Under the pieces are notes generated by a model. That model was not told the DNA's origin. It was given only the letters and a program-made list of their open reading frames with translations, and did not search any database. From an uncultured Winogradskyella sp. (GTDB lineage: Bacteria > Bacteroidota > Bacteroidia > Flavobacteriales > Flavobacteriaceae), in assembly GCA_913055905.1 (NCBI GenBank), contig CAJXLB010000005.1, positions 1-64,000 of the forward strand: a DNA stretch of 64,000 nucleotides. The letters run 5' to 3'. Every line of letters starts with the position of its first letter. Within the stretch, counting starts at the first letter, position 1. Below are positions 20,318 through 33,912 of this stretch, one piece after another. Position numbers and translations under genes: made by a program.

Positions 20318-21316
20318 ATGCAAAAAATAACAAAAGAAGTTTACCTGAAGTGGTACGAAGACATGTTGTTTTGGCGCAAGTTTGAAGATAAGCTTGCCGC
20401 AGTATACATACAGCAAAAGGTAAGAGGGTTTCTACACTTGTACAATGGTCAAGAAGCCGTTTTGGCAGGAGCACTCCATGCCATGGATCTAAATAAAGAC
20501 CGAATGATTACGGCCTATCGTAATCATGTTCAGCCAATAGGTATGGGTGTTGATCCCAAGCGTGTGATGGCAGAGTTATTTGGTAAGGCTACTGGGACAT
20601 CTCAAGGACTAGGCGGATCTATGCATATTTTCTCAAAGGAACACCGGTTTTACGGAGGCCATGGTATCGTAGGAGGACAAATTCCCCTAGGTGCAGGTAT
20701 TGCTTTTGGTGATAAATACCACGAAAGAGATTCTGTAACACTTTGTTTCTTTGGTGATGGTGCTGCTAGGCAAGGCTCGCTACATGAGACTTTTAATATG
20801 GCCATGTTATGGAACTTACCAGTTGTATTTGTTTGTGAAAATAATGGCTACGCGATGGGTACATCTGTAGAGCGCACGGCAAACCATCCTGATATTTGGA
20901 AATTAGGTTTAGGTTATGACATGCCTTCAGGGCCAGTAGACGGCATGAGCCCTATCAAAGTGGCTGAGGCTTTTGATGAAGCTATCCAAAGGGCTAGAAC
21001 TGGTGGTGGCCCAACGTTTTTAGAAGTAAAAACGTATCGATACAGAGGTCACTCAATGTCTGATGCGCAGCACTATAGAACCAAGGAGGAGGTAGAAGAA
21101 TATAAGAAAATAGACCCTATCACTCAGGTAAAGGATATTTTGTTAGAGAAAAAATATGCTACCGAAGATGAAATTAAGGAAATTGATAAGCGCGTGAAAA
21201 AACGTGTTTCTGAGTGCGAGAAGTTTGCTGAAGAATCGCCATTCCCAGAGAAAAACGTCATGTACGACGCAGTTTATGAACAAGAGGATTATCCATTTAT
21301 ACCACATAAATTATAA
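20318..21316 (+). CDS. pdhA: pyruvate dehydrogenase E1 component, alpha subunit
   Basis: Thiamine-diphosphate subunit that decarboxylates pyruvate in the pyruvate dehydrogenase complex. The 332-residue protein has the E1-alpha features HLYNGQEAV, GGSMHIFSKEHRFYGGHGIV, and the ThDP motif FFGDGAARQGSLHETFNMA with ENNGYAMGTS after it. It ends with the phosphorylation-loop-like region YRYRGHSMSDAQHYRTKEEV. The E2 gene starts 3 bases after its stop. The E1-beta gene, which must exist for activity, is not in this window. Related branched-chain E1 enzymes are an alternative, but pairing with E2 and family resemblance favour pyruvate. Confidence 0.94.
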   Translation: MQKITKEVYLKWYEDMLFWRKFEDKLAAVYIQQKVRGFLHLYNGQEAVLAGALHAMDLNKDRMITAYRNHVQPIGMGVDPKRVMAELFGKATGTSQGLGGSMHIFSKEHRFYGGHGIVGGQIPLGAGIAFGDKYHERDSVTLCFFGDGAARQGSLHETFNMAMLWNLPVVFVCENNGYAMGTSVERTANHPDIWKLGLGYDMPSGPVDGMSPIKVAEAFDEAIQRARTGGGPTFLEVKTYRYRGHSMSDAQHYRTKEEVEEYKKIDPITQVKDILLEKKYATEDEIKEIDKRVKKRVSECEKFAEESPFPEKNVMYDAVYEQEDYPFIPHKL

Positions 21317-21319
21317 CCT

Positions 21320-22942
21320 ATGGCAGAAGTAATTAATATGCCAAGACTAAGCGATACCATGGAAGAAGGTACCGTGGCTACTTGGTTAAAAAAAGTTGGA
21401 GATAAAGTAGAGGAAGGCGATATTCTGGCCGAGATAGAAACGGATAAGGCGACGATGGAATTTGAGTCTTTCTATGAAGGTACGTTGCTGCATATAGGTG
21501 TTAAGGAAGGGGAAACAACAAAAGTAGATCAATTGCTTGCCATTATAGGTGAGGAAGGAGAAGATATCAGCGCCCTTCTTAATGGAGAAAATAAAACCTC
21601 AGAAGAAAAGACTGAAGATGTTGAGAAAACAGCTTCGGAAGATTCAGAAGACACCCATACTGACGAACCAGCCGATATACCTGATGATGTTACCGTGGTC
21701 ACCATGCCGAGATTAAGTGATACTATGGAGGAAGGAACGGTTGCGACCTGGCTAAAAAAGGTTGGAGACCAAGTTGAAGAGGGCGATATTCTAGCCGAAA
21801 TAGAAACCGATAAGGCAACTATGGAGTTTGAATCCTTTGATTCTGGAACGCTCTTACACATTGGTTTAAATGAAGGGGAATCTGCAAAAGTTGATGCCTT
21901 ATTGGCAATTTTAGGCCCAGAAGGCACTGATGTTTCTGCTATTGTTAAGAATTTTAAAGCTGGAGGGTCAGATAAGGCTACAGAAACAAAAGAAACGCCT
22001 AAACCACAAAAGGAAGCGGCACTAGAGAAGAAAGAAGAGCCAAAGGTTGAAGCTCAGCAGACCGCAACATCAACCTCTAATGATGGCCGAATCTTTGCAT
22101 CGCCACTCGCTAAGAAGATGGCTGAGGAAAAAGGTATTAATTTAAACCAAGTTAAGGGTACAGGAGAAAACGGAAGAATTGTAAAGCGCGATATCGAGAA
22201 TTTTACACCGCAAGCGGCTACCTCTTCTGCGCCAGTAGCCAAATTTGTACCAACAGGTCAAGAGGATTACGATGAGGTTCCGAATTCAAGTATGCGTAAG
22301 GCAATTGCCAAAAATTTAGCTAAGTCTAAGTTTACCGCGCCTCATTACTATTTAAATGTGGAATTCGATATGGCCAATGCCATAGCCTTCAGGGAGCAGT
22401 ATAACTCTATGCCAGATACCAAGATATCATTCAATGATATGATAGTCAAAGCCTGCGCATTGGCCTTACGTCAGCACCCTCAAGTTAATTCCCAATGGTT
22501 TGATGATAAAATGAGGCTAAATAACCACGTGCATATTGGTGTAGCTGTTGCGGTGCCAGACGGTTTAGTTGTGCCAGTAGTTAAGTTTGCCAATGAGCAA
22601 TCATTGACGCAAATAGGCGCTGCTGTGAAGGATTACGCAAGAAGGGCACGTGATAAAAAGTTGAGCTTGGAAGAGATGGAAGGAAGTACATTTACGGTCT
22701 CTAACCTCGGTATGTTTGGTATTGAAAGTTTTACCTCAATAATAAATCAGCCGAATTCTGCAATCTTGTCCGTTGGAGCAATCGTGGAAAAACCTGTTGT
22801 AAAGGACGGAAAGATAGTTGTTGGGCATACGATGAAATTATCTATGGCTTGCGACCACAGAACGGTAGATGGTGCTACAGGTGCACTCTTCTTACAGACC
22901 TTAAAAGGTTACATAGAGAATCCAGTGACAATGCTCATCTAG
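21320..22942 (+). CDS. pdhC: dihydrolipoamide acetyltransferase, pyruvate dehydrogenase E2
   Basis: Core acyltransferase of the pyruvate dehydrogenase complex: carries acetyl groups on lipoyl-lysine and passes them to CoA. The 540-residue protein has two lipoyl domains whose central stretches are almost identical, with lipoyl lysines K43 and K165 in ETDKATMEFES. An acidic linker (about residues 90-120) precedes the second. An E3/E1-binding domain (about 253-290, FASPLAKKMAEEKG) and the catalytic domain with H513 in DHRTVDG follow. It is coupled to pdhA by a 3-base gap and ends before a hairpin at 22968-23001. Confidence 0.96.
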   Translation: MAEVINMPRLSDTMEEGTVATWLKKVGDKVEEGDILAEIETDKATMEFESFYEGTLLHIGVKEGETTKVDQLLAIIGEEGEDISALLNGENKTSEEKTEDVEKTASEDSEDTHTDEPADIPDDVTVVTMPRLSDTMEEGTVATWLKKVGDQVEEGDILAEIETDKATMEFESFDSGTLLHIGLNEGESAKVDALLAILGPEGTDVSAIVKNFKAGGSDKATETKETPKPQKEAALEKKEEPKVEAQQTATSTSNDGRIFASPLAKKMAEEKGINLNQVKGTGENGRIVKRDIENFTPQAATSSAPVAKFVPTGQEDYDEVPNSSMRKAIAKNLAKSKFTAPHYYLNVEFDMANAIAFREQYNSMPDTKISFNDMIVKACALALRQHPQVNSQWFDDKMRLNNHVHIGVAVAVPDGLVVPVVKFANEQSLTQIGAAVKDYARRARDKKLSLEEMEGSTFTVSNLGMFGIESFTSIINQPNSAILSVGAIVEKPVVKDGKIVVGHTMKLSMACDHRTVDGATGALFLQTLKGYIENPVTMLI

Positions 22943-22967
22943 AGCCTTGTTTTATTCGTAATAAATG

Positions 22968-23001
22968 AAACCTATTTTCTTAATTGGGAATAGGTTTTTT
23001 T
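22968..23001 (+). terminator. pdhA-pdhC terminator
   Basis: AAACCTATT (22968-22976) pairs with AATAGGTTT (22989-22997), extended inward by G-U pairs, followed by a T run. It ends the pdhA-pdhC operon. The same T-rich tail leads into TATCTTTA (23001-23008), a possible -10 for the next gene. Confidence 0.85.
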
Positions 23002-23024
23002 ATCTTTAAACCTAAATTTAAGAA

Positions 23025-23987
23025 ATGAAACCGCTTTTACACATACTTATAGTTTGTTTACTCTTCTTCTCTTGTTCGTCTACTAAAGAAAACACGAAGG
23101 CAGAAGAATCAAATAAGCCCATCACTGCAGCATCCATCAAGGAAAGTATGGAGTATTTAGCTTCCGATGAATTGGAAGGACGACAAACAGGTACAGAAGG
23201 AATTGAACTTGCAGCTCAATACATAGAGAAGTATTTTAAACAGCATAAAATCAAGCCTTTTTTTGAAACGTATAGAGATTCCTTCAGTTTTAATTCAATT
23301 ACTGGCTACAACGTAGTTGGGTTTATTGAAGGAAATGATCCTAAACTTAAAAATGAATATATCATTCTCGGTGGACATTATGATCATATTGGGCAAGGGA
23401 CAGAGGTCAATGGCGATACCATAGCCAACGGTGCTAATGATGATGCTTCCGGAACGGTGGCTGCCATGGAAATGGGTCGATACTTTGCCCAGACCAAATC
23501 GAACAAACGCAGTATTTTAATAACTTTATATGCTGCTGAAGAGATGGGTCTTAAGGGTTCGGGCCATTTAGCTGAGCGTCTTAAATCCCAAGGTACGGAT
23601 ATTTACACCATGGTAAACTTTGAAATGGTTGGCGTTCCTCGTGCAGCGGACCAACCTATGGCTTACATGTCTGGTTATAACAGGTCTAATTTGGCTTCAA
23701 CCCTTAATACCTATGCAGGCGAGGAGGTCGTGGGCTTTTTTCCTAAGGCCAAAGAGTTTCAGTTATTTTTTAGGTCTGATAATTATCCTTTTTTTAAGGC
23801 TTTAAACATACCAGCTCATGCTATTTCAACTTTCGACTTCACTAATTATGCTTATTACCACCATGTAGATGACGAAATCGATAAAATGGACTTTAATCAC
23901 ATGGCTACTTTTGTCAATAAGATAATTCCAGCCTTTGAGGGTATGATGAATGCGGCAACTAAAGAAGTAACACTTACCGATGAGTAA
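23025..23987 (+). CDS. M28 family metallopeptidase, lipoprotein
   Basis: Predicted zinc aminopeptidase exposed on a membrane. The 320-residue protein has a lipoprotein signal with LLFFSC (Cys17). The M28 metal-binding residues are visible in order: His and Asp in GGHYDHIGQG (about residues 112-121), Asp in ANGANDDASGT, the catalytic Glu pair in YAAEEMGLKGSGH, Glu in VNFEMVG, and a late His in YYHHVDDE. No PDZ or PA domain is evident, so it is the short form. It overlaps the following SDR gene by 8 bases, suggesting translational coupling. The substrate cannot be read from the sequence. Confidence 0.9.
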   Translation: MKPLLHILIVCLLFFSCSSTKENTKAEESNKPITAASIKESMEYLASDELEGRQTGTEGIELAAQYIEKYFKQHKIKPFFETYRDSFSFNSITGYNVVGFIEGNDPKLKNEYIILGGHYDHIGQGTEVNGDTIANGANDDASGTVAAMEMGRYFAQTKSNKRSILITLYAAEEMGLKGSGHLAERLKSQGTDIYTMVNFEMVGVPRAADQPMAYMSGYNRSNLASTLNTYAGEEVVGFFPKAKEFQLFFRSDNYPFFKALNIPAHAISTFDFTNYAYYHHVDDEIDKMDFNHMATFVNKIIPAFEGMMNAATKEVTLTDE

Positions 23988-24666
23988 AAAAAATATCATA
24001 ATCACAGGAACAAGTCGTGGTATTGGCTTTGAGCTTGTAAAACTATTTCAGAAGGAAGGCCATACTATTTTAGCACTTTCGCGTAATTATAAAGCCATAG
24101 CAGATTTAAAGCTGCAAAATGTAACTAGTCTTGGTTGCGATTTATGCATTTCAAATGATTACGAGAAAGTAAAGGATTTTATAACAGAACATTGGACGCA
24201 TGTTGATATATTGATAAACAATGCTGGTCAGGTTTTAAATAAGCCTTTTAAAGACACTACAATAGATGATTTTAAAAAGGTCTATGATACCAATGTTTTT
24301 GGTGTTTCAGAAATGACACGAACCGTACTCCCTTTTATGAAGAAGAATAGCCATGTTGTCACCATAAGTTCCATGGGAGGTATTCAAGGCAGTATGAAGT
24401 TCCCAGGGCTTTCAGCTTACAGTTCTAGTAAAGGAGCTGTAATTACTTTATCTGAATTATTGGCCGAAGAATATAAAGAAACTGGCCCTCAATTTAATGT
24501 GCTGGCTCTAGGAGCGGTACAAACAGAAATGCTTGAAGAAGCTTTTCCAGGCTACAAGGCACCACTTTCGGCCTTGGAAATGGCAGAATATATTTTTGAT
24601 TTTGCGCTAACCGGAAACAAATTCTATAACGGTAAGGTGTTACAGGTGTCAAATTCCACACCGTAA
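23980..24666 (+). CDS. short-chain dehydrogenase/reductase
   Basis: NAD(P)-dependent oxidoreductase of the classical SDR family; substrate unknown. The 228-residue protein shows the dinucleotide loop TGTSRGIGFE (about residues 8-17), the structural NNAGQ motif, and the catalytic Ser/Tyr/Lys set (ITISSMGG with Ser, YSSSKGA with Tyr and Lys). It starts within the last codons of the M28 gene. Its stop codon directly abuts the stop of the convergent cbpM-like gene with no intervening base and no terminator. Confidence 0.92.
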   Translation: MSKKNIIITGTSRGIGFELVKLFQKEGHTILALSRNYKAIADLKLQNVTSLGCDLCISNDYEKVKDFITEHWTHVDILINNAGQVLNKPFKDTTIDDFKKVYDTNVFGVSEMTRTVLPFMKKNSHVVTISSMGGIQGSMKFPGLSAYSSSKGAVITLSELLAEEYKETGPQFNVLALGAVQTEMLEEAFPGYKAPLSALEMAEYIFDFALTGNKFYNGKVLQVSNSTP

Positions 24667-24966
24667 TCAGTCCTCGGATTCAAACCTTTGGAGCTTATTT
24701 TTCAAGCTATTAACCTTAATTGTTAAGGCTTCAATTCGGTTTAAGAGGTTAAACACCGTGTCAATACCTTCTAGATTAAGATTGAGTTCGCGTTGCAGTC
24801 TAATTATTTTCTCAATATCTACAATCCTGTCTTTATGAATGTAATAGGTCTCTTCTATGGTATGCAGCTCTATTAGACCATATTCGTCAAGATCACTGAA
24901 AAATGACATTTCAATTTTGTATTGATTGCACAGTTGAGGTAGCGGTATAAAATTTTCATTTTCCAT
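24667..24966 (-). CDS. cbpM: chaperone modulator CbpM-like protein
   Basis: Small cytoplasmic protein of 99 residues, expected to bind the J-domain of the CbpA-type co-chaperone encoded just upstream and modulate it. It has a MerR-like N-terminal fold (FIPLPQLCNQYKIEMSFFSDLDEYGLIEL, split here as FIPLPQLCNQYK then IEMSFFSDLDEYGLIEL). A C-terminal coiled coil rich in Leu, Lys and Glu runs from about residue 50. Its ATG is 1 base from the cbpA-like stop, so the two are co-transcribed, as in E. coli cbpA-cbpM. Assignment rests on size, fold pattern and pairing rather than on strong motifs. Confidence 0.82.
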   Translation of the reverse strand: MENENFIPLPQLCNQYKIEMSFFSDLDEYGLIELHTIEETYYIHKDRIVDIEKIIRLQRELNLNLEGIDTVFNLLNRIEALTIKVNSLKNKLQRFESED

Positions 24967-24967
24967 G

Positions 24968-25861
24968 TCACTTCAAATTAGATAATTTTTCAAATAATTC
25001 TTTTTCTTCAGGGCTCAATTTATTTGGTAACTTAACATTGAAAGTTACGTAAAGATCGCCGTAGACATTGTCTTTTTTGTATTTAGGAAATCCTTTGCCT
25101 TTCAATTTTACCTTAGTCCCATTTTGGGTTAAAGGCTTAACCTTTAGTTTTACTTTACCATCAAATGTATCGATGGTCACCTCACCTCCTAAGATAGCCT
25201 TATATAGATCTAAGTTTACCGTGGTGTGTAGGTTGTCACCATCGCGTTTAAAGGGTGTGTTGTTCTCTATGATAAACTCGATATATAAATCACCATTGGG
25301 ACCGCCATTAATGCCCTTACCACCTTTACCTTTGATTTTAATGATTTGCCCATTGGAAACACCAGCGGGAATAGTGAGACGAATATTGTTTCCATTGACG
25401 GTTAAAACTTGCTTTTGCGATTTGTAAACGTCACGTAAATTCAATTTAAGCTGGGCATTGTAATCTTGTCCGCGATATTTTACGTGAGACCTACGCCTTC
25501 CACCAGAAAAGGCATCACCAAACATAGATTCAAAAAAATCTGAATAATCTCCGGATTCAAAGCCTGAATATTGCTGATAACCGCCTTGTTGTTGCTGTTG
25601 CTGCTGTCTGCGTTGCGCTTCTTCGTAGGCTTCACCTTCTTTCCAATGTTCACCGTATTTATCGTACTTTTTGCGAAACTCTGGGTTGCTTAGCACCTCA
25701 TTGGCTTCGTTTAGCTGTTTAAACTTTAGTTCGGCTTCCTTGTCATTGGGATTTAGGTCTGGGTGGTATTTTCGTGCTAATTTTCTATAGGCTTTTTTTA
25801 TTTCAGCCTCAGAGGCATTTTTATCAACACCCAAAATTTTATAATAATCAATAAAGGCCAT
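24968..25861 (-). CDS. cbpA: DnaJ/CbpA-type co-chaperone
   Basis: Hsp40 co-chaperone of DnaK. The 297-residue protein begins with a J-domain ([23 protein letters not shown] motif at about residues 33-35). A Gln-rich then Gly/Phe-rich linker follows (about residues 83-125). The two-part DnaJ C-terminal substrate domain includes [19 protein letters not shown] and [19 protein letters not shown]. The zinc-finger domain of full DnaJ is absent, so it is the CbpA type. It is followed 1 base later by its probable modulator cbpM. Confidence 0.94.
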
Positions 25862-25994
25862 ATTAAATACCTGAATTTATATTTTTACATCAATCAAGCT
25901 CAATTTAGTTCTTTTTGGAAACACTAAAAATGACATTGTTCAGCTTTGGTAAAATTCTCTTATAAGATAAAACAAAAGTTAGGATTCAAAAATT

Positions 25995-26648
25995 ATGAGT
26001 GACAGAACAAGTAAGTATCAATGCGTCATTTTTGATTGTGATGGTGTTTTGGTGGATAGTGAACCTATTGGCAATAAGGTAATGGTTGAGATGGCAAATT
26101 CCTTAGGTGCTGATATAGATTTAGACTATGCCTACCAACATTTTAAGGGAAATTCCTTGTATAAATGCATGCAGCACATTAGAGATCTAATTGAAAAAGA
26201 GTTGCCGGCTGATTTTGAATCAGAATATAGAAGAATATCCTTCCAACGGTTTAAAAATGAAATCCAACCAGTTGAAGGGATTATAGACCTTGTCCGAAGT
26301 CTTGAAGTTCCGTTCTGCGTGGCATCTAGTGGGCCAGAAAATAAGATTCGGTTAAATCTAAAATTAACAGGGCTACTGCCTTATTTTGAAAACAAAATTT
26401 TTAGTTGTTACGCTATTGAAAAATGGAAACCAGATCCAGAGATTTTTATCTGGGCATCAAAAACGATGGGCTTTCATAGCTCAGAGTGCGTGGTTATCGA
26501 AGATAGTATTCATGGTGTAGAAGCCGCCATAAACGGCGGTTTTGATGTATTTGCATTTACAGCCAATGGTTTAAACGATGAACTGCAAGAAAAAGCGACT
26601 AAAACCTTTGATACTATGTTAAACCTAAAAGAAATGTTAAAGGTTTAA
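25995..26648 (+). CDS. HAD-superfamily phosphatase/phosphomutase (subfamily IA)
   Basis: Cytoplasmic hydrolase of 217 residues related to beta-phosphoglucomutases and sugar-phosphate phosphatases. HAD motif I is VIFDCDGVLVDSEP (nucleophile Asp at about residue 14). Motif II is FCVASSGPENK, motif III is the Lys in EKWKPDPEIF, and motif IV is VIEDSIHGVEAA. An alpha-helical cap lies between motifs I and II. The substrate is not determined by sequence. It is 32 bases upstream of the giant secreted protein gene; a shared transcript is possible but unproven. Confidence 0.88.
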   Translation: MSDRTSKYQCVIFDCDGVLVDSEPIGNKVMVEMANSLGADIDLDYAYQHFKGNSLYKCMQHIRDLIEKELPADFESEYRRISFQRFKNEIQPVEGIIDLVRSLEVPFCVASSGPENKIRLNLKLTGLLPYFENKIFSCYAIEKWKPDPEIFIWASKTMGFHSSECVVIEDSIHGVEAAINGGFDVFAFTANGLNDELQEKATKTFDTMLNLKEMLKV

Positions 26649-26680
26649 ATCAAATTTTTATTTTAGTAAAAAATTGAAAT

Positions 26681-29600
26681 ATGATGAAGAAAGTACTCAT
26701 ATTTAAACATTCAATTTTAATTACTTGTCTTTTAGTTAGCTCATTAATTAGTGCGCAAATCTTTGAGCGTGTAGAAAATACAGTAGGCCTTGGTGTATTG
26801 CAAAATAATAATGGAGTCGCCGTAGCCGATTATGACGGTGATAACGATTTAGATGTTTTTGTCGTAGCAAAAGCCAAGGACAACTCAAATGAGCCAGGTA
26901 GCCTAAGTCGACTCTTTAGAAACAACAATGATGGTTCATTCACCGATGTCACTGAAGCTGCAGGCTTAACAGGATTGTTAAATTCAGATGAAGGAGGCGA
27001 TCCTCATTCTGCTTTTAATGGTTTTAAAAGTGGCGCTTCATGGGCAGATTACAATAACGATGGTTTCCCTGACCTTCTTCTTACCTATGCTTTGAAAGTG
27101 CAATTATGGCGTAATTTGGGTAATGGAACCTTTGTTAATATATCCCAAGTGACAGGATTGACAAGTGCCAATAGTTGTGTCAATACAGGTTCTACATGGT
27201 TTGACTATAACAATGATGGCCTATTGGATATTTATATTACGCAGTCTGAAAGCTGTGGCTCTAACCAATTATTTAGAAATAACGGTAACAGTACATTTAC
27301 AGATGTTACTGCTTCAACAAATATTTTAGAAATTTCAGCATCCTTAAGTACAAATGCTATGCCCTTAGATGTGAATTCAGATGGCTTTATGGATTTGTAT
27401 GTCACTAATCGCTCCGGCGAAGCCAACTATTTATTCATAAACAATTCAGGGGCATCGTTTAGCGAGTCTGCTGTATCTTACGGTCTTGACGGAATCATGA
27501 GTAATGCTATACAAGTAGGCGATTTTAATAATGATGAAACTATTGATATCTGGGTAACTGGCATCGATAACAATTATGCTTTTACAAATAATGGGAATAA
27601 TACCTATACCGATAATGCCGATGCTTTTGGCCTTGGTAATGCTTTGTGGGCAAGTGGGTCCTCATCTGCTGATTTTGACTTGGATGGCGATATTGACATT
27701 TTTACAGCAAACGGTTTTGCCGACCAGAATATCAACGCACAGCCAAACCTATATTACAGAAATTCCCATGCCCAAGCACAAGGTAACTTTGAGGAAATAT
27801 CATCTCAATTAGGGCTTAATACGTCCTCGGTTGGTGTAAGCAGTGTGTCTTGGGATTACGATAACGATGGTGATGAAGATTTAATTACCACAAATAGTGA
27901 GGGAACTATTTTCTTCTATGAAAATAAACTTTTGAATTTTGACGATACTACAACAGCATCCAACTGGTTTAAGATTCAGCTCCAGGGCACGACATCAAAT
28001 AGAGATGCTATTGGCACCCAGATTTCCGTGACTACCGCAAATGGAACTCAAAAACTACTTTACACAGGAGTTGGTTATATGAGTCAAAGTTTAAAGCCTG
28101 CACTTTTTGGTTTAGGAACGGCAGAAAATATTTTATCTCTGGAAATAGTTTGGTCTTCAGGACTAATCGAAACCTACAGTAATCTGCCTCCAAACACAAC
28201 AATTAGGGCTGTAGAAGGAGGAGGCTATGAGATTTTAGATATTCTGCCAAGCCAAAAGATCTATGGATGTACCGATCCCATATCTTGTAACTATAACCCA
28301 AATGCCAACTTAGATGATGGCTCTTGTAGTTATATTGAATCACAGTCTATTGTTGGTAATGTAAATAGTTCTTTTTTAAGTACTGAAACGTACACCTATA
28401 ATATTGGTCCAAGTTCTACTGCTCAATGGCAAGTACAAGGTGGAGAGATTATTAGTGGTCAGGGTACTGGTACTATTGTGGTGCGCTGGCACATTGAGGC
28501 TTCAGGTACGGTATCTGTTGTAGAATCCAATTCCCAGTGCTCAAGCTTACAAACCTCTATTACGGTAGATTTAGGTGTCGATTCATTGTCTCCAGATATT
28601 TCTGTGGCAAGATTATGGAACGAAGCACTGCTTACTGCGATTAGGGGAGATTTTGCTCGGCCCACGGTTCATGCAAGAAATTTGTTTCACACAAGTGTTG
28701 CCATGTACGATATTTGGGCGCTTTATGACGAGGTTGCTCAACCGTATCTCATAGGGAACTCTTTAAATGGGTTTGAAAGCACACTTGAAAATTTCAATCC
28801 TAATGAACCCATTGATGTATCGGTGCATAAGGCCATAAGTTATGCCATGTATAGGCTTTTAACACATCGCTTCCAAAATTCGCCTACTGTAGACGCTACC
28901 CAAGAGATTTTTGATCTTATCATGCAGCGCTTTGGTTATGATACGGCTATGACTTCATTGTTTTATCAAGATGGTGATGCAGCGGCTTTGGGGAACTTTG
29001 TTGCACAGACAATTATTGATTATGGTTTACAGGACGGTTCGCGGGAAGCCACGGGTTATGACAATGCTTACTATGAGTCGGTCAATGCACCTTACGCTTT
29101 AGACTCCAATGAAAACCCTCCCATAAACGATCCAAATCGTTGGCAGCCATTGGGCTTGGACACGTTTATTGATCAAGGCGGAAATTTAATAGATGGCAAT
29201 GTGCCGCCATTTTTAAGTCCAGAATGGGGTAATGTATTCTCTTTTGCGCTTAAGGAAGAAGATAAAGTCACTTATGAAAGAGATGGTCATCAATATCATG
29301 TGTTTCACGATCCGTCAGACCCACCGTATATTAGTCTAACGGAGTCCAACCCTTCAAGTGATCAATATAAATGGGGCTTTACCATGGTATCTGTTTGGCA
29401 GGCTCATTTAGATCCTTTTGATGGTGTAATGTGGGATATTTCGCCTAACTCTATTGGTAACGTTGATATTAGTACTTTTCCAACGGATTTTGCAGATTAT
29501 CCGAACTTTTACGATTATTTTGAAGGTGGAAGCATTAGCGCAGGTCATACGATAAACCCTGTAACAGGGAATCCCTATGAAGTTAATATGGTGCCACGAG

Positions 29601-30712
29601 GCGATTATGCTCGGGTTCTGGCAGAATTTTGGGCAGATGGGCCAGATTCTGAAACACCACCTGGACATTGGTTTACCATTTTAAATTACGTTAACGACCA
29701 TCCACAATTTGAAAAGCGTTTTCAAGGACAGGGACCTATCTTAGAGCCATTGGAGTGGGATGTTAAAGCCTATTTCATCTTAGGTGGTGGGATGCATGAT
29801 GCTGCAATCGCAGCTTGGAGTGTAAAAGGCTGGTACGACTATATTAGACCGATATCTGCCATTAGGTCTATGGCAGAGCGTGGGCAGAGCACAGACCCAA
29901 ATCTGGAAAATTATGATGTCTCAGGTATTCCCTTGATAGATGGTTATATAGAGGTTATACAAGAAGGCGATCCGTTAGCAGGTTTTGCTAATCAGTACGT
30001 AGGGGACATAAAGCTGTTCACATGGAAAGGCCATGATTTTATTGAAAATACTGATACAGACATGGCTGGTGTCGGTTGGATACGAGCAGACGATTGGTAT
30101 CCCTACCAACGTCCTACGTTTGTGACACCGCCTTTCGCAGGATATGTTTCTGGTCATTCTACTTACTCTAGAACGGCAGCAGAATTGTTGACTATGATGA
30201 CAGGTAGTCCATATTTCCCTGGTGGTTTGGGTGAGTTTGTGGCTAAACAAAATGAATTCTTGGTTTTTGAGGAAGGACCATCAGTTGATGTCGTCTTACA
30301 ATGGGCCACTTATCGTGATGCCTCAGACCAAACGAGCCTGAGTAGAATTTGGGGTGGGATACATCCGCCCGCAGATGATATTCCAGGACGATTTATCGGA
30401 CAAGTAGTAGCAGAAGACGCCTTTGCCTTTGCATTGCCTTATTTTGAAGGAAATCTAAGTGTAGAGGACAATGAACTTTTGAGCCAAGTTGTTTTTCCAA
30501 ACCCAATGGAAAACAATCAAATTACCATTACTAACACAAGACCTTTTGATTCTATAAAGTTTTTTGATTTAAGAGGAAGGGAAATAAATGTCACCTCACG
30601 AACATTTAATAGTGATGCTAACAGTACAACCATTAATTTTAATGATCTAACCTCTGGTCTTTATATTTTGCTTATCAATGAAAGGTCCTATAAAATAATG
30701 GTTAGAGATTAA
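26681..30712 (+). CDS. secreted FG-GAP/ASPIC - vanadium haloperoxidase fusion with T9SS tail
   Basis: A 1343-residue modular secreted protein. It has a signal peptide (residues 1-26, ending LISAQ). At least seven FG-GAP/VCBS calcium-binding repeats follow (DYDGDNDLDVF, DYNNDGFPDLL, DYNNDGLLDIY, DVNSDGFMDLY, DFNNDETIDIW, DFDLDGDIDIF, DYDNDGDEDLI) over about residues 45-410. Next is an ASPIC/UnbV segment (about 425-520) and a GCTDPISCNYNPNANLDDGS motif (about 530). From about residue 640 it is a vanadium-haloperoxidase/PAP2-type domain. Every vanadate-site residue is visible: Lys1049 and Arg1056 in KGWYDYIRP, Ser1157-Gly-His1159, Arg1222 and His1228 in SRIWGGIHPPAD. The end (VFPNPMENNQITI to YKIMVRD) is a T9SS type A sorting domain. 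Halide versus phosphatase activity is not decidable here. Confidence 0.9.
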   Translation: MMKKVLIFKHSILITCLLVSSLISAQIFERVENTVGLGVLQNNNGVAVADYDGDNDLDVFVVAKAKDNSNEPGSLSRLFRNNNDGSFTDVTEAAGLTGLLNSDEGGDPHSAFNGFKSGASWADYNNDGFPDLLLTYALKVQLWRNLGNGTFVNISQVTGLTSANSCVNTGSTWFDYNNDGLLDIYITQSESCGSNQLFRNNGNSTFTDVTASTNILEISASLSTNAMPLDVNSDGFMDLYVTNRSGEANYLFINNSGASFSESAVSYGLDGIMSNAIQVGDFNNDETIDIWVTGIDNNYAFTNNGNNTYTDNADAFGLGNALWASGSSSADFDLDGDIDIFTANGFADQNINAQPNLYYRNSHAQAQGNFEEISSQLGLNTSSVGVSSVSWDYDNDGDEDLITTNSEGTIFFYENKLLNFDDTTTASNWFKIQLQGTTSNRDAIGTQISVTTANGTQKLLYTGVGYMSQSLKPALFGLGTAENILSLEIVWSSGLIETYSNLPPNTTIRAVEGGGYEILDILPSQKIYGCTDPISCNYNPNANLDDGSCSYIESQSIVGNVNSSFLSTETYTYNIGPSSTAQWQVQGGEIISGQGTGTIVVRWHIEASGTVSVVESNSQCSSLQTSITVDLGVDSLSPDISVARLWNEALLTAIRGDFARPTVHARNLFHTSVAMYDIWALYDEVAQPYLIGNSLNGFESTLENFNPNEPIDVSVHKAISYAMYRLLTHRFQNSPTVDATQEIFDLIMQRFGYDTAMTSLFYQDGDAAALGNFVAQTIIDYGLQDGSREATGYDNAYYESVNAPYALDSNENPPINDPNRWQPLGLDTFIDQGGNLIDGNVPPFLSPEWGNVFSFALKEEDKVTYERDGHQYHVFHDPSDPPYISLTESNPSSDQYKWGFTMVSVWQAHLDPFDGVMWDISPNSIGNVDISTFPTDFADYPNFYDYFEGGSISAGHTINPVTGNPYEVNMVPRGDYARVLAEFWADGPDSETPPGHWFTILNYVNDHPQFEKRFQGQGPILEPLEWDVKAYFILGGGMHDAAIAAWSVKGWYDYIRPISAIRSMAERGQSTDPNLENYDVSGIPLIDGYIEVIQEGDPLAGFANQYVGDIKLFTWKGHDFIENTDTDMAGVGWIRADDWYPYQRPTFVTPPFAGYVSGHSTYSRTAAELLTMMTGSPYFPGGLGEFVAKQNEFLVFEEGPSVDVVLQWATYRDASDQTSLSRIWGGIHPPADDIPGRFIGQVVAEDAFAFALPYFEGNLSVEDNELLSQVVFPNPMENNQITITNTRPFDSIKFFDLRGREINVTSRTFNSDANSTTINFNDLTSGLYILLINERSYKIMVRD

Positions 30713-30723
30713 GGCTGTTCAAT

Positions 30724-31326
30724 TTGAGTAATAATCAACAAGTATTGCATTTTATACCTCGTCACGCTCGTGATAGAGTAGTAGACCTTTTAGATAAAGA
30801 CAGTTTAGTAGTAAAGGTAAAACAAGAACGTAAAACCAAACATGGCGACTATAGGAGCCTTCATAATGGAAAACATCAAATAACCATTAATGCTAACTTG
30901 AATCCATATCGCTTTTTAATTACACTCCTTCATGAAATTGCCCATTTTGAAGCCTATCAGAACTATGGGTACAGAATAAAGCCACATGGGAAGGAATGGA
31001 AACAAACGTTTCAACACATAATGCTACCCTTTATTAGTCCTGATATTTTTCCTAACGAACTTTTGCCACTACTCGCAAAACATTTTATTAATCCCAAAGC
31101 ATCCACCGACACAGATGCGCCATTGAGCCTAGCCTTAAAGCAATATAACGAGGGAGAGGCTAAAACCTATGTTTTTGAATTACCTTTAGGGCAGAAATTT
31201 AAGATTTATAACGGTCGGACATTTCAGCGTGGAAAAAAAAGAAGAAAACGTTACGAGTGTATGGAATTAAAAACAAATAAAGTGTATCTGTTCAATCCTA
31301 ATGTTGAAGTAGAAGCGCTTAATTAA
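30724..31326 (+). CDS. SprT-like domain protein
   Basis: Putative zinc metalloprotease-fold protein of 200 residues. The SprT-type zinc site HEIAH is at residues 70-74 with a third candidate ligand His88 in KPHGKEW. The C-terminal basic segment (RTFQRGKKRRKRYECMEL) resembles the zinc-ribbon region of SprT proteins but has only one Cys. The best start is TTG at 30724, 12 bases after the upstream stop; no ATG occurs near it in frame. Function is unknown; SprT homologues range from DNA-protein-crosslink proteases to uncharacterised proteins. Confidence 0.85.
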   Translation: MSNNQQVLHFIPRHARDRVVDLLDKDSLVVKVKQERKTKHGDYRSLHNGKHQITINANLNPYRFLITLLHEIAHFEAYQNYGYRIKPHGKEWKQTFQHIMLPFISPDIFPNELLPLLAKHFINPKASTDTDAPLSLALKQYNEGEAKTYVFELPLGQKFKIYNGRTFQRGKKRRKRYECMELKTNKVYLFNPNVEVEALN

Positions 31327-31353
31327 TTGAAGACCTCACCCAAATAGTGATAT

Positions 31354-32436
31354 ATGAAGAATAAAAATTATTATGCAATTTTAATGGCAGGTGGTGTAGG
31401 TTCTAGGTTTTGGCCTGTGAGTACTCAAGCTTTTCCTAAGCAATTTCACGATATGTTGGGTACGGGACAGACCTTAATTCAAAAGACGTTTAATCGTTTG
31501 GCGCAACTTATACCAGAAGAAAATATTTTCATTTTAACCAATGAGCGCTATAACGATTTGGTTTTTGAGCAGCTTCCAGGCATAACAAAACGCCAAGTGG
31601 TTTTAGAACCTGCCATGCGCAATACGGCTCCATGTATTTTATATGCAGCACTTAAAATAAAGAAGGAAAATGAAGATGCGGTCATGATAGTGGCGCCAAG
31701 TGACCACTGGATTGAGGATGAAAACGCTTTTACAGCGAATGTTAAAACAGCTTTTGAGTTTTGCCAGAACAATGCTGCTTTGATGACCTTAGGGATTACT
31801 CCCACATTTCCAAATACAGGCTATGGTTATATTGAATACGATAAATCATCAACAAGCTCAATTAAACCAGTCAAGCAATTTAGGGAGAAGCCAGATTATG
31901 CAACTGCCAAAACCTTCTTGGAGCAAGGAAATTTTCTTTGGAATGCCGGAATTTTTATGTGGAGTGCCCAAACTGTTCTTTCAGCGTTTGAAAAAAATCA
32001 ACCGAAGCTATTCGAACTTTTTGAAAAGGGCTATGACACCTTCAATACAGAGCTTGAAGAAGAGTTCATAAAGGAAAATTACCCTAAAGCCGAAAATATC
32101 TCGGTAGACTACGCTATCATGGAAAAAAGCGATAACGTTTATGTGATTCCGGCCACCTTTGATTGGAATGATTTAGGGACTTGGGGCAGTCTTTATGATA
32201 AATTGGATAAAGATGACAATAACAATGCGGTAGTTAATGCTCAGGTGCTTTTAGAGAATGCGTCTGGGAATATGATCCGAACTCAAAAGAATAAAATTGT
32301 TGTGTTAGAAGACCTTAACGACTATATAATAGTTGATAAAGAAGAAGTTTTGCTTATCTTTCCTAAACGAAAAGAACAAGACATTAAAAAAGTTCTTCAG
32401 AACGTAAAGAATAAATTTGGCAATCAATTTGGTTAA
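31354..32436 (+). CDS. manC: mannose-1-phosphate guanylyltransferase
   Basis: Makes GDP-mannose from mannose-1-phosphate and GTP for glycan synthesis. The 360-residue protein has the nucleotidyltransferase signature LMAGGVGSRFWPVST (about residues 10-24). It also has VLEPAMRNTAPCIL, the catalytic-region APSDHWI, FREKPD, GNFLWNAGIFMW and TFDWNDLGTWGSL. It is the short form without the C-terminal phosphomannose isomerase domain. The DUF389 gene begins 3 bases after its stop, so the two are probably co-translated, although no functional link is evident. Confidence 0.94.
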   Translation: MKNKNYYAILMAGGVGSRFWPVSTQAFPKQFHDMLGTGQTLIQKTFNRLAQLIPEENIFILTNERYNDLVFEQLPGITKRQVVLEPAMRNTAPCILYAALKIKKENEDAVMIVAPSDHWIEDENAFTANVKTAFEFCQNNAALMTLGITPTFPNTGYGYIEYDKSSTSSIKPVKQFREKPDYATAKTFLEQGNFLWNAGIFMWSAQTVLSAFEKNQPKLFELFEKGYDTFNTELEEEFIKENYPKAENISVDYAIMEKSDNVYVIPATFDWNDLGTWGSLYDKLDKDDNNNAVVNAQVLLENASGNMIRTQKNKIVVLEDLNDYIIVDKEEVLLIFPKRKEQDIKKVLQNVKNKFGNQFG

Positions 32437-32439
32437 ACT

Positions 32440-33912
32440 ATGAGCGAAGAAAGCAAGTTCAATTTTTCCGAAGAAGAACAGCAACAAATAGATAAAGACA
32501 AGGCTGTTGAAGAAAAGAAGGAAGCTGTAAAAAAAGATGCACAAGGTCTTTTTGCTAGCATAAGTACTTTTTTAAGTGAACTGTTAGACTTCCGTGACGA
32601 CACGGATAGAGAGGCCACGATTACGGCCATACAGGGTGATATTTCATTCAAGGGTGCCACGGCATGGATTCTTATTTGTTCTATATTCGTTGCCTCCATT
32701 GGATTAAATGCCAATAGTACTGCAGTAGTTATTGGTGCCATGTTAATTTCCCCTCTTATGGGTCCCATCTTAGGGGTGGGAATGTCCATTGCCATAAATG
32801 ACATCTTTACCTTAAGAAAATCCTTGATCAACTTAGCGACCATGATTGTCCTGAGTTTATTAACGGCATTTTTATTTTTTAAGTTTTTCCCAACGGCAGA
32901 TGTTGGAAATAGTGAAATATTTGGACGAACAAAACCAGATTTCAGGGACGTATTAATCGCCTTTTTTGGTGGCTTGGCACTCATTATAGCGCGTACAAAA
33001 AAAGGAACCATAGCTTCAGTAATTTTTGGTGTGGCTATTGCCACTGCCTTAATGCCGCCATTATGTGTGGCCGGATATGGTCTGGCCAATGATTGGTCTG
33101 CATTCTATGGAGCAATGTACCTATTTATTATAAACAGTATTTTTATTGCTCTAGCGACCTTTTTAGTCTTAAAATTGTTGCGCTTCCCAATGTTAAAATA
33201 CGCTAACTCCAAGAAACGTAAGCGAATAGCGCGCTTGGCTACTGTTATTGCCATAATTGTTATGATTCCTGCAGGAATAACATTTTGGGATGTCTATAAA
33301 GAGAGCGAGTTTAATACTGCCGCGGAGAAATTCAGGGATAAGGAGTTAAGCGGATTACCACACGCAGATTACATAAAACGAAATTTTGTGTATAAGTATG
33401 CTAGTGAAAAAGGCCCTTATCTTGAAATAAATTCATTTGGCCTTGACGAGATACCAGAGTCTACCATTGAACTGCTAAAAAACCGCATTAATGAATATCC
33501 ATCTTTAGTTAATAGTAATACCAAGCTATTCTATGACCCTATCAGTAATTCTGATGTTGATAGTTTTAAGTACATGCAAGAGCTGCGTGCCAGGGATTCC
33601 TTAGACTTACTGTCTCAGGCGCAAAAAATTAGTTACTTGGAGAGCAGACTGAAAGTACTATCTAAACTGGAGCGGTATCAGATTCCGTTTGAATCTATAG
33701 TAGAGGAGGCTAAAATTAATTACGACAATTTAGAGGCTATATCCTATGCCAATGAAATTTCATTTGACTTTTCGAATATTGATACCTTAACGGTCTTTAA
33801 ATTTAGATGGATCGATTCTTTATCGACGCCAGAAACTATAGCTAGAGATTCCAAGAAATTGGAAAAATGGCTAAAGGTGAAGTTGAAATTAGATACGTTG
33901 GTGGTACAATAG
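32440..33912 (+). CDS. DUF389 family membrane protein
   Basis: Inner-membrane protein of unknown function, 490 residues. The first ~60 residues are charged and cytoplasmic. About six membrane segments then run from roughly residue 70 to 290, with the DUF389 hallmarks NSTAVVIGAMLISPLMGPIL, IARTKKGTIASVIFGVAIAT and ATALMPPLCVAGYGL. The C-terminal ~190 residues are soluble, probably periplasmic. It starts 3 bases after manC and is convergent with the MlaF-type ABC gene. No confident role is known for the family. Confidence 0.9.
   Translation: MSEESKFNFSEEEQQQIDKDKAVEEKKEAVKKDAQGLFASISTFLSELLDFRDDTDREATITAIQGDISFKGATAWILICSIFVASIGLNANSTAVVIGAMLISPLMGPILGVGMSIAINDIFTLRKSLINLATMIVLSLLTAFLFFKFFPTADVGNSEIFGRTKPDFRDVLIAFFGGLALIIARTKKGTIASVIFGVAIATALMPPLCVAGYGLANDWSAFYGAMYLFIINSIFIALATFLVLKLLRFPMLKYANSKKRKRIARLATVIAIIVMIPAGITFWDVYKESEFNTAAEKFRDKELSGLPHADYIKRNFVYKYASEKGPYLEINSFGLDEIPESTIELLKNRINEYPSLVNSNTKLFYDPISNSDVDSFKYMQELRARDSLDLLSQAQKISYLESRLKVLSKLERYQIPFESIVEEAKINYDNLEAISYANEISFDFSNIDTLTVFKFRWIDSLSTPETIARDSKKLEKWLKVKLKLDTLVVQ

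Follow-up and report, generated by a model that had tools for sequence, protein, structure and literature searches.

The vanadium haloperoxidases (VHPOs) are built of two helical bundles where the acid phosphatase EB-NSAP has a single one, and they carry the vanadate motifs RP, Y-SGH and R-G-H-D (PMC4859513). Longer patterns, PxYxSGHA and LxxxxAxxRxxxGxHxxxD, are given in PMC10427571, where F397 of the C. inaequalis vanadium chloroperoxidase (VCPO) is the suspected halide acceptor. A 2011 paper described the bacterial role of integrin-type propellers as unknown (PMC3192720). Here we describe a gene of an uncultured Winogradskyella sp. (Flavobacteriaceae; assembly GCA_913055905.1, contig CAJXLB010000005.1) whose product joins a calcium-type FG-GAP/ASPIC propeller to a VHPO domain. 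It occupies 26681-30712 (+) of the window, as we call the whole stretch of 64,000 nucleotides analysed. Both halves are known families. What is added here is that, as far as sequence comparison goes, VHPO and FG-GAP/ASPIC appear to be recurrent partners, fused or as neighbour genes, and that the two halves of the fused gene have conflicting trees. No account of such a fusion or pairing was found in searches confined to a library of open-access papers. We read the product as an exported, probably surface-held VHPO-type enzyme that would be aimed by a fused, Ca-stabilised, CRTAC1-like propeller, and we put the probability of this reading slightly above even, at about 0.52.

The vanadate-site residues K1049, R1056, S1157, G1158, H1159, R1222 and H1228 are all in place, exactly where an earlier sequence-only reading of this DNA had put them. 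All seven are invariant in the 30 sequences of alignment A1 (the window protein and 29 relatives, 56-90% identity) and in the 17 rows of a wider alignment, A3, which reaches down to 30% identity and comprises six long-type and eleven 490-aa-type sequences. The shorter published motifs are present as R1056-P1057, Y1155/S1157/G1158/H1159 and R1222/G1226/H1228/D1232, and the window protein departs from the longer patterns with Ala1153 for Pro, Ser1160 for Ala, Ala1214 for Leu and Ser1219 for Ala. The sequence-only reading had also singled out the Val in front of SGH as a departure from a PSGH motif. That point did not survive, Pro being found there in 0/17 A3 rows and Thr in the Zobellia iodoperoxidase. 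At E 0.01, DUF6851 and VCPO_2nd each match 30/30 members of A1; DUF6851, which lies ahead of VCPO_2nd, may be the first VHPO helical bundle. In the window protein itself DUF6851 (residues 672-823, E 9e-8) scores over the Pfam cut-off, while VCPO_2nd (1038-1064) falls just under it. These two stand where PAP2 had been expected: PAP2 (PF01569) has no match in the window protein at E 0.01 and weakly matches three of the 30 A1 sequences, the best at E 0.0014.

Comparison with solved proteins strengthened the earlier domain assignment. Searched against PDB sequences, the A1 profile matched five at E 1 or better, each a VHPO homologue. With the A3 profile there were 21 matches at E 0.1 or better; every one bears the name of a haloperoxidase, a vanadium chloroperoxidase or bromoperoxidase, NapH1 or NapH3, and no phosphatase is among them. 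The single window protein gave weak PDB matches: CRTAC1, a set of four VHPO homologues (E 0.27 or better) and, at E 0.13, an unrelated lipoprotein. Trp at K-3 is found in 131/132 parsed VHPO-type frames and Phe at H-7 in 132/132 (three more frames could not be parsed). In PAP2-family proteins of the same class the corresponding counts are 0/8 for Trp and 2/18 for Phe (30 loci, 18 with readable motifs and 8 of those with the K motif). By its spacing, we take the Phe at H-7 to be the counterpart of F397. A prediction of halide preference from the Phe/Trp pair was dropped; the Zobellia iodoperoxidase has the same Phe as the C. inaequalis chloroperoxidase, so the pair is uninformative on the halide. 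By sequence, the window enzyme domain is on the VHPO side.

The sequence-only reading had considered the protein the most novel of the window. The FG-GAP/ASPIC-VHPO combination is, however, a widespread Flavobacteriaceae family and no one-off. The 199 Flavobacteriaceae genomes searched amount to almost one per genus; at E 1e-5, 82 of them have a relative of the VHPO region, short types included. A hand count of open frames of at least 1250 aa gave 34 matches in 29 genomes, and ASPIC stood in front in all 28 of these matches that were examined. The long type was present in 22/395 genomes of the phylum at E 1e-20. Among 29 named-record loci were 21 long fusions, one fusion read from an internal start (L009, a 1098-aa frame whose start lies inside the gene) and seven stand-alone genes. 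In L025, a record titled Marinimicrobium (Pseudomonadota), a 739-aa stand-alone long-type VHPO is 60% identical to the window domain; the gene has perhaps been acquired.

Fifty of the 90 long-type rows in a VHPO tree are fused to FG-GAP/ASPIC. This tree was built by a quick method from 111 domains (loci up to L123; L001, L002, L098 and eight duplicates excluded, identical domains merged). One of its clades comprises 48 fused rows and one unfused member (L094), and the fused proteins L097 and L099 are placed among stand-alone proteins. In a propeller tree (without L035-L063, 12 close fused relatives and domains under 350 aa, and with only 12 propellers of the 1100-aa type), L099 groups with the enzyme-free FG-GAP/ASPIC proteins of the genome that contains the window. 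L097 groups with the propeller gene of L022, which adjoins a VHPO gene, and propeller genes of this adjoining kind are the sister group of the main fused clade. The fused label needs four changes on the VHPO tree and three on the propeller tree, forced in each by starred branches, and by parsimony the fusion would have arisen at least three times. The linker measures 128-135 aa in 50/52 fused frames (duplicates included), 29 aa in L097 and 26 aa in L099. A strict Cys-linker pattern was dropped as a family marker, being present in only 23/52 fused frames. An additional FG-GAP-VHPO fusion, L136, has no ASPIC match.

The two families also occur as neighbour genes. Around long VHPO genes of the phylum, an ASPIC gene was found in the same stretch in 5/20 loci, one of them divergent, against 0.52 expected (p 1e-4); 24 full-length long-type places lie outside the genus, and G380, G518, G442:C268 and a 130-aa fragment were excluded. 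In L022, L026 and L095 the ASPIC gene is the next neighbour. Around lipoprotein-type VHPO genes, an ASPIC gene lay within 7 kb in 15/20 loci, with 0.34 expected in the stretch (p 5e-23, with loci treated as independent and kinship uncorrected), and within 200 bases on the same strand in 11/20. The 20 loci were taken from the top of 64 matches ranked by score, the own genome's match set aside. The 15 were counted by hand, the ASPIC model having found 14 and the Pfam table having added L160; a third copy in G314 (C96), whose ASPIC match lies 1.8 kb past the end, was excluded. The genome of the window has such a pair at C1:516386-521092 (L032:9387-14093), where a lipoprotein-like VHPO of 436 aa with YTSGH ends 3 bases before a 1130-aa FG-GAP/ASPIC gene.

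Tandem propeller genes were seen as well. The same genome encodes, at C2:38025-43425 (L033:6026-11426), a tandem row of three FG-GAP/ASPIC proteins; each is 570-580 aa long, their ends look T9SS-like by eye, and none has a VHPO match. In L144, L147, L149, L156, L157, L159 and L161, a tandem pair of 1100-aa FG-GAP/ASPIC genes stands beside the lipoprotein VHPO gene.

Within Winogradskyella the two halves of the fused gene appear to have had different histories. SprT and GMP genes, as behind the window gene, are present in 16/22 fused named-record loci, so the gene mostly keeps its place. In the domain comparisons, from which L009 was excluded, the propeller of W. flava (L027) is 76% identical to that of L013 vs 57% to that of L007; its VHPO is nearest L004/L006/L007 (84%) and its flanking genes are nearest L007. 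The window VHPO is 89-90% identical to that of L013, and its flanks are also nearest L013; its propeller is 55% identical to that of L013 and 63% to that of L031. The propellers form allele groups L003/L013/L027 and L004/L006/L007/L010, with L029 less well resolved. In tree tests under the LG+F+G4 model, the VHPO and propeller trees of 22 taxa rejected each other by 519 and 379 log units. With 16 taxa, flank data rejected the propeller tree by 596 units and the VHPO tree by 40 (p value of the approximately unbiased test, p-AU, 0.003), and VHPO data rejected the propeller tree by 229. In a set of the window and nine named-strain genomes, flank data did not reject the VHPO tree (p-AU 0.074) but rejected the propeller tree by 222 units, as VHPO data did by 197. 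Propeller data rejected both the flank and the VHPO trees (p-AU <= 1e-6). Sliding windows placed the switch point at about residues 400-520, around ASPIC, in L027 and L008. Since the VHPO stays near the flanks, and flank and VHPO data both reject the propeller tree, the propeller looks to have been exchanged as a module. The VHPO seems to descend near, though not identically to, the flanking chromosome, and the propeller seems to have passed between lineages, a pattern suggestive of one conserved enzyme that is directed to different targets.

Faster evolution of the propeller, hidden paralogy or chimeric assemblies might instead have produced the tree conflict. This question is separate from that of function, and we consider such an artefact improbable. 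The propeller does diverge on average 1.8-2.9 times as fast as the VHPO, G019 and G061 have three long copies each, and L008 is, going by its title, a contig of a metagenome-assembled genome with about 4x coverage. Rate alone, however, cannot explain a W. flava propeller closer to L013 than to L007 when L007 is nearer L027 than L013 is in VHPO and flanks, and the conflict remains with the nine named-strain genomes plus the window. Paralogy would still require a break inside the gene, because the VHPO stays close to the flanks. The propeller would on this evidence be a separable targeting cassette, found as a neighbour gene elsewhere, fused to VHPO several times and swapped between Winogradskyella lineages. 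The wider proposal, that a conserved surface VHPO is re-aimed by swaps of whole seven-bladed propellers between lineages and that FG-GAP/ASPIC is a standard targeting partner of Bacteroidota VHPO-type enzymes, fused or adjacent, we advance tentatively, as somewhat short of an even bet.

The window protein would work as follows. Sec would export it by its N-terminal signal peptide, and the type IX secretion system (T9SS) would carry it across the outer membrane and remove the tail that is observed here. Vanadate would be held by K1049, R1056, S1157, G1158, R1222 and H1228, with H1159 as the acid-base residue, roles that we assume from the VHPO family. H2O2 would form a peroxovanadate, a halide would be oxidised to hypohalous acid, and the acid would act close to the target bound by the propeller. 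From sequence we infer haloperoxidase activity, and likewise surface display, the vanadate/H2O2/halide chemistry and target binding by the propeller.

Several observations weigh against the aimed surface haloperoxidase. PAP2 phosphatases share its pocket, and phosphatase activity of C. inaequalis VCPO is on record (PMC4859513). The SGH His is lost in the VHPO homologues 9l8x, NapH1, NapH3 and 9ptr, so that homology is no proof of halide oxidation. SusC/SusD-like and glycoside hydrolase (GH) neighbours in some relatives point to nutrient use. As to the cassette, VHPO data reject the flank tree by 47 units with 16 taxa (p-AU 3e-4) and, mildly, by 16 units with the nine named-strain genomes plus the window (p-AU 0.008). 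Most silent sites are saturated, those of the exchanged pairs included, so the exchanges are old and beyond dating. A pairwise dN/dS test gave no support for diversifying selection on the propeller (omega 0.02-0.17 where dS is finite). As to the partnership, 32/34 non-fused long-type Flavobacteriaceae loci are without an ASPIC or FG-GAP neighbour (some stretches end at contig ends), as are 18/20 short 490-aa loci. We discarded the notion that an ASPIC neighbour goes with each VHPO, since 32/34 of the former and 19/20 of the latter have none.

The main rival to the haloperoxidase is a surface acid phosphatase, which would use the same pocket free of vanadate to release phosphate from a propeller-held substrate in a Sus-like nutrient uptake. 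The K-R-SGH-R-H pocket is common to both families, and among ten chosen neighbours scanned (one without any family) SusC/SusD-like genes lie near ASPIC/VHPO units in L095, L097 and L150 and a SusD in L022, with a GH20 enzyme in L095 and a GH65 in L145. We nevertheless regard a phosphatase as rather unlikely, given that the PDB matches of the A1 and A3 profiles include none, that models of the second VHPO bundle and of the putative first one are matched, EB-NSAP having one bundle (PMC4859513), that the Trp/Phe positions differ from those of PAP2-family proteins of the same class, and that 0/10 window genes scanned (20318-33912) encode SusC/SusD. The VHPO fold might instead serve another chemistry, in which an organic substrate is oxidised or rearranged; some NapH-type homologues are known to do this. 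In favour, bacterial VHPO homologues, NapH3 among them, are the nearest chains of solved structure, and the window domain has two inserts, of about 60 and 40 residues, that the 490-aa type lacks. Its SGH is intact, however, where those homologues have the His replaced, and we think this other chemistry unlikely.

Repeated fusion and gene pairing link two functional puzzles, that of the VHPO and that of the bacterial propeller. If hypohalite is made at the cell surface, this bears on algal-bacterial interaction and halogen cycling. For Arenibacter, iodine uptake was reported to depend on glucose, oxygen and calcium; a glucose oxidase plus a haloperoxidase were proposed (PMC5064120). Zobellia vIPO3 was upregulated on the brown alga A. 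nodosum (PMC9296495).

The layout of the gene (Table 1) agrees with the sequence-only reading in most respects. The frame, predicted as one intact secreted protein, runs from an ATG without internal stops. The claimed FG-GAP plus ASPIC/UnbV architecture was borne out by FG-GAP_3 (E 6e-39) and UnbV_ASPIC (E 1e-14), both over the Pfam cut-off, and by the CRTAC1 match. A run of FG-GAP blades carrying Ca-type loops, with UnbV_ASPIC behind it, defines the CRTAC1/ASPIC (UnbV) family, and this order is found here. About seven Ca-type repeats had been counted, and a loose pattern does give seven DxDxDG-like loops, at residues 49, 122, 174, 229, 280, 330 and 391, vs five with the strict pattern. PKD_6 (567-626) stays under the cut-off. 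The type IX tail, also foreseen, is over the cut-offs of Pfam (Por_Secre_tail, E 3e-10) and NCBIfam (TIGR04183), and together with the signal peptide seen by eye this is what marks T9SS cargo. The host genome measures 2.95 Mb, and the nearest relatives of the locus are Winogradskyella.

Table 1. Features of the fused gene, with positions in the window.
Feature	Residues	Positions	Strand	Basis
Whole gene, FG-GAP/ASPIC-VHPO fusion with T9SS tail	1343 aa	26681..30712	+	ORF (open reading frame) and Pfam
Signal peptide	about 1-26	26681..26758	+	by eye
FG-GAP propeller, seven DxDxDG-like loops, apparently exchanged module	27-435	26759..27985	+	
UnbV_ASPIC domain	443-508	28007..28204	+	Pfam
Linker: Cys motif (by eye), PKD-like stretch (PKD_6 under cut-off)	509-640	28205..28600	+	
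VHPO region: DUF6851 (putative first bundle), then VCPO second bundle	641-1260	28601..30460	+	profiles
Vanadate site, part 1	K1049-x6-R1056, then P1057	29825..29848	+	alignments
Vanadate site, part 2 (YVSGH)	S1157 G1158 H1159	30149..30157	+	alignments
Vanadate site, part 3	R1222-x5-H1228, D1232 at H+4	30344..30364	+	alignments
T9SS type A sorting tail	1271-1338	30491..30694	+	Pfam, NCBIfam

The C-terminal tail is the most variable part among relatives, with 29-68% identity among 13 Winogradskyella-type proteins vs 77-89% for the VHPO. Further loci showed other arrangements. The VHPO gene of L098 (G150) is split across two frames, and L130 (G241) has two long-type VHPO genes with some 600 bases between them, both of which have T9SS tails and long extensions at the C-terminus. 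An 899-aa VHPO protein at L135:6965-9664 carries MopE-type Cu-binding repeats (PF11617) after the catalytic domain. In L015, a record titled Algicola sp., the fused gene and its neighbours are Psychroserpens-like, and the label may mislead.

Among known systems, the vanadium iodoperoxidase of Zobellia galactanivorans (4cit/4usz) resembles the window protein in coming from a marine member of the Flavobacteriaceae, in its KX6RP, YxSGH and SRxxGGIH motifs, in the non-Pro residue before SGH (Thr, where the window has Val), and in Trp at K-3 and Phe at H-7. Unlike the window protein it is a 458-residue chain without propeller, ASPIC or linker, and it is a weaker match, at E 1.7e-31 to A3 and 1.4e-5 to A1. 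The best full-length A3 matches, at E 1e-58 to 1e-73, are 9ptr, 9l8x, NapH1 (3w35) and NapH3 (8cxl), which differ in having Ser or Phe for the SGH His and chains without a propeller. Human CRTAC1 (9etn) shares the FG-GAP propeller followed by an ASPIC-like region (E 3e-12, residues 202-498), but it is an animal protein with a 586-residue chain, and the enzyme half is unmatched. The Bacteroidota pairs of an FG-GAP/ASPIC gene (about 1100 aa) and a lipoprotein VHPO gene, such as L032, have the two partners of the window gene side by side. They differ from it in being two genes with lipoprotein-type starts (by eye), in a propeller of another clade, and in a VHPO of another subfamily, of which 154/436 residues match the long-type model.

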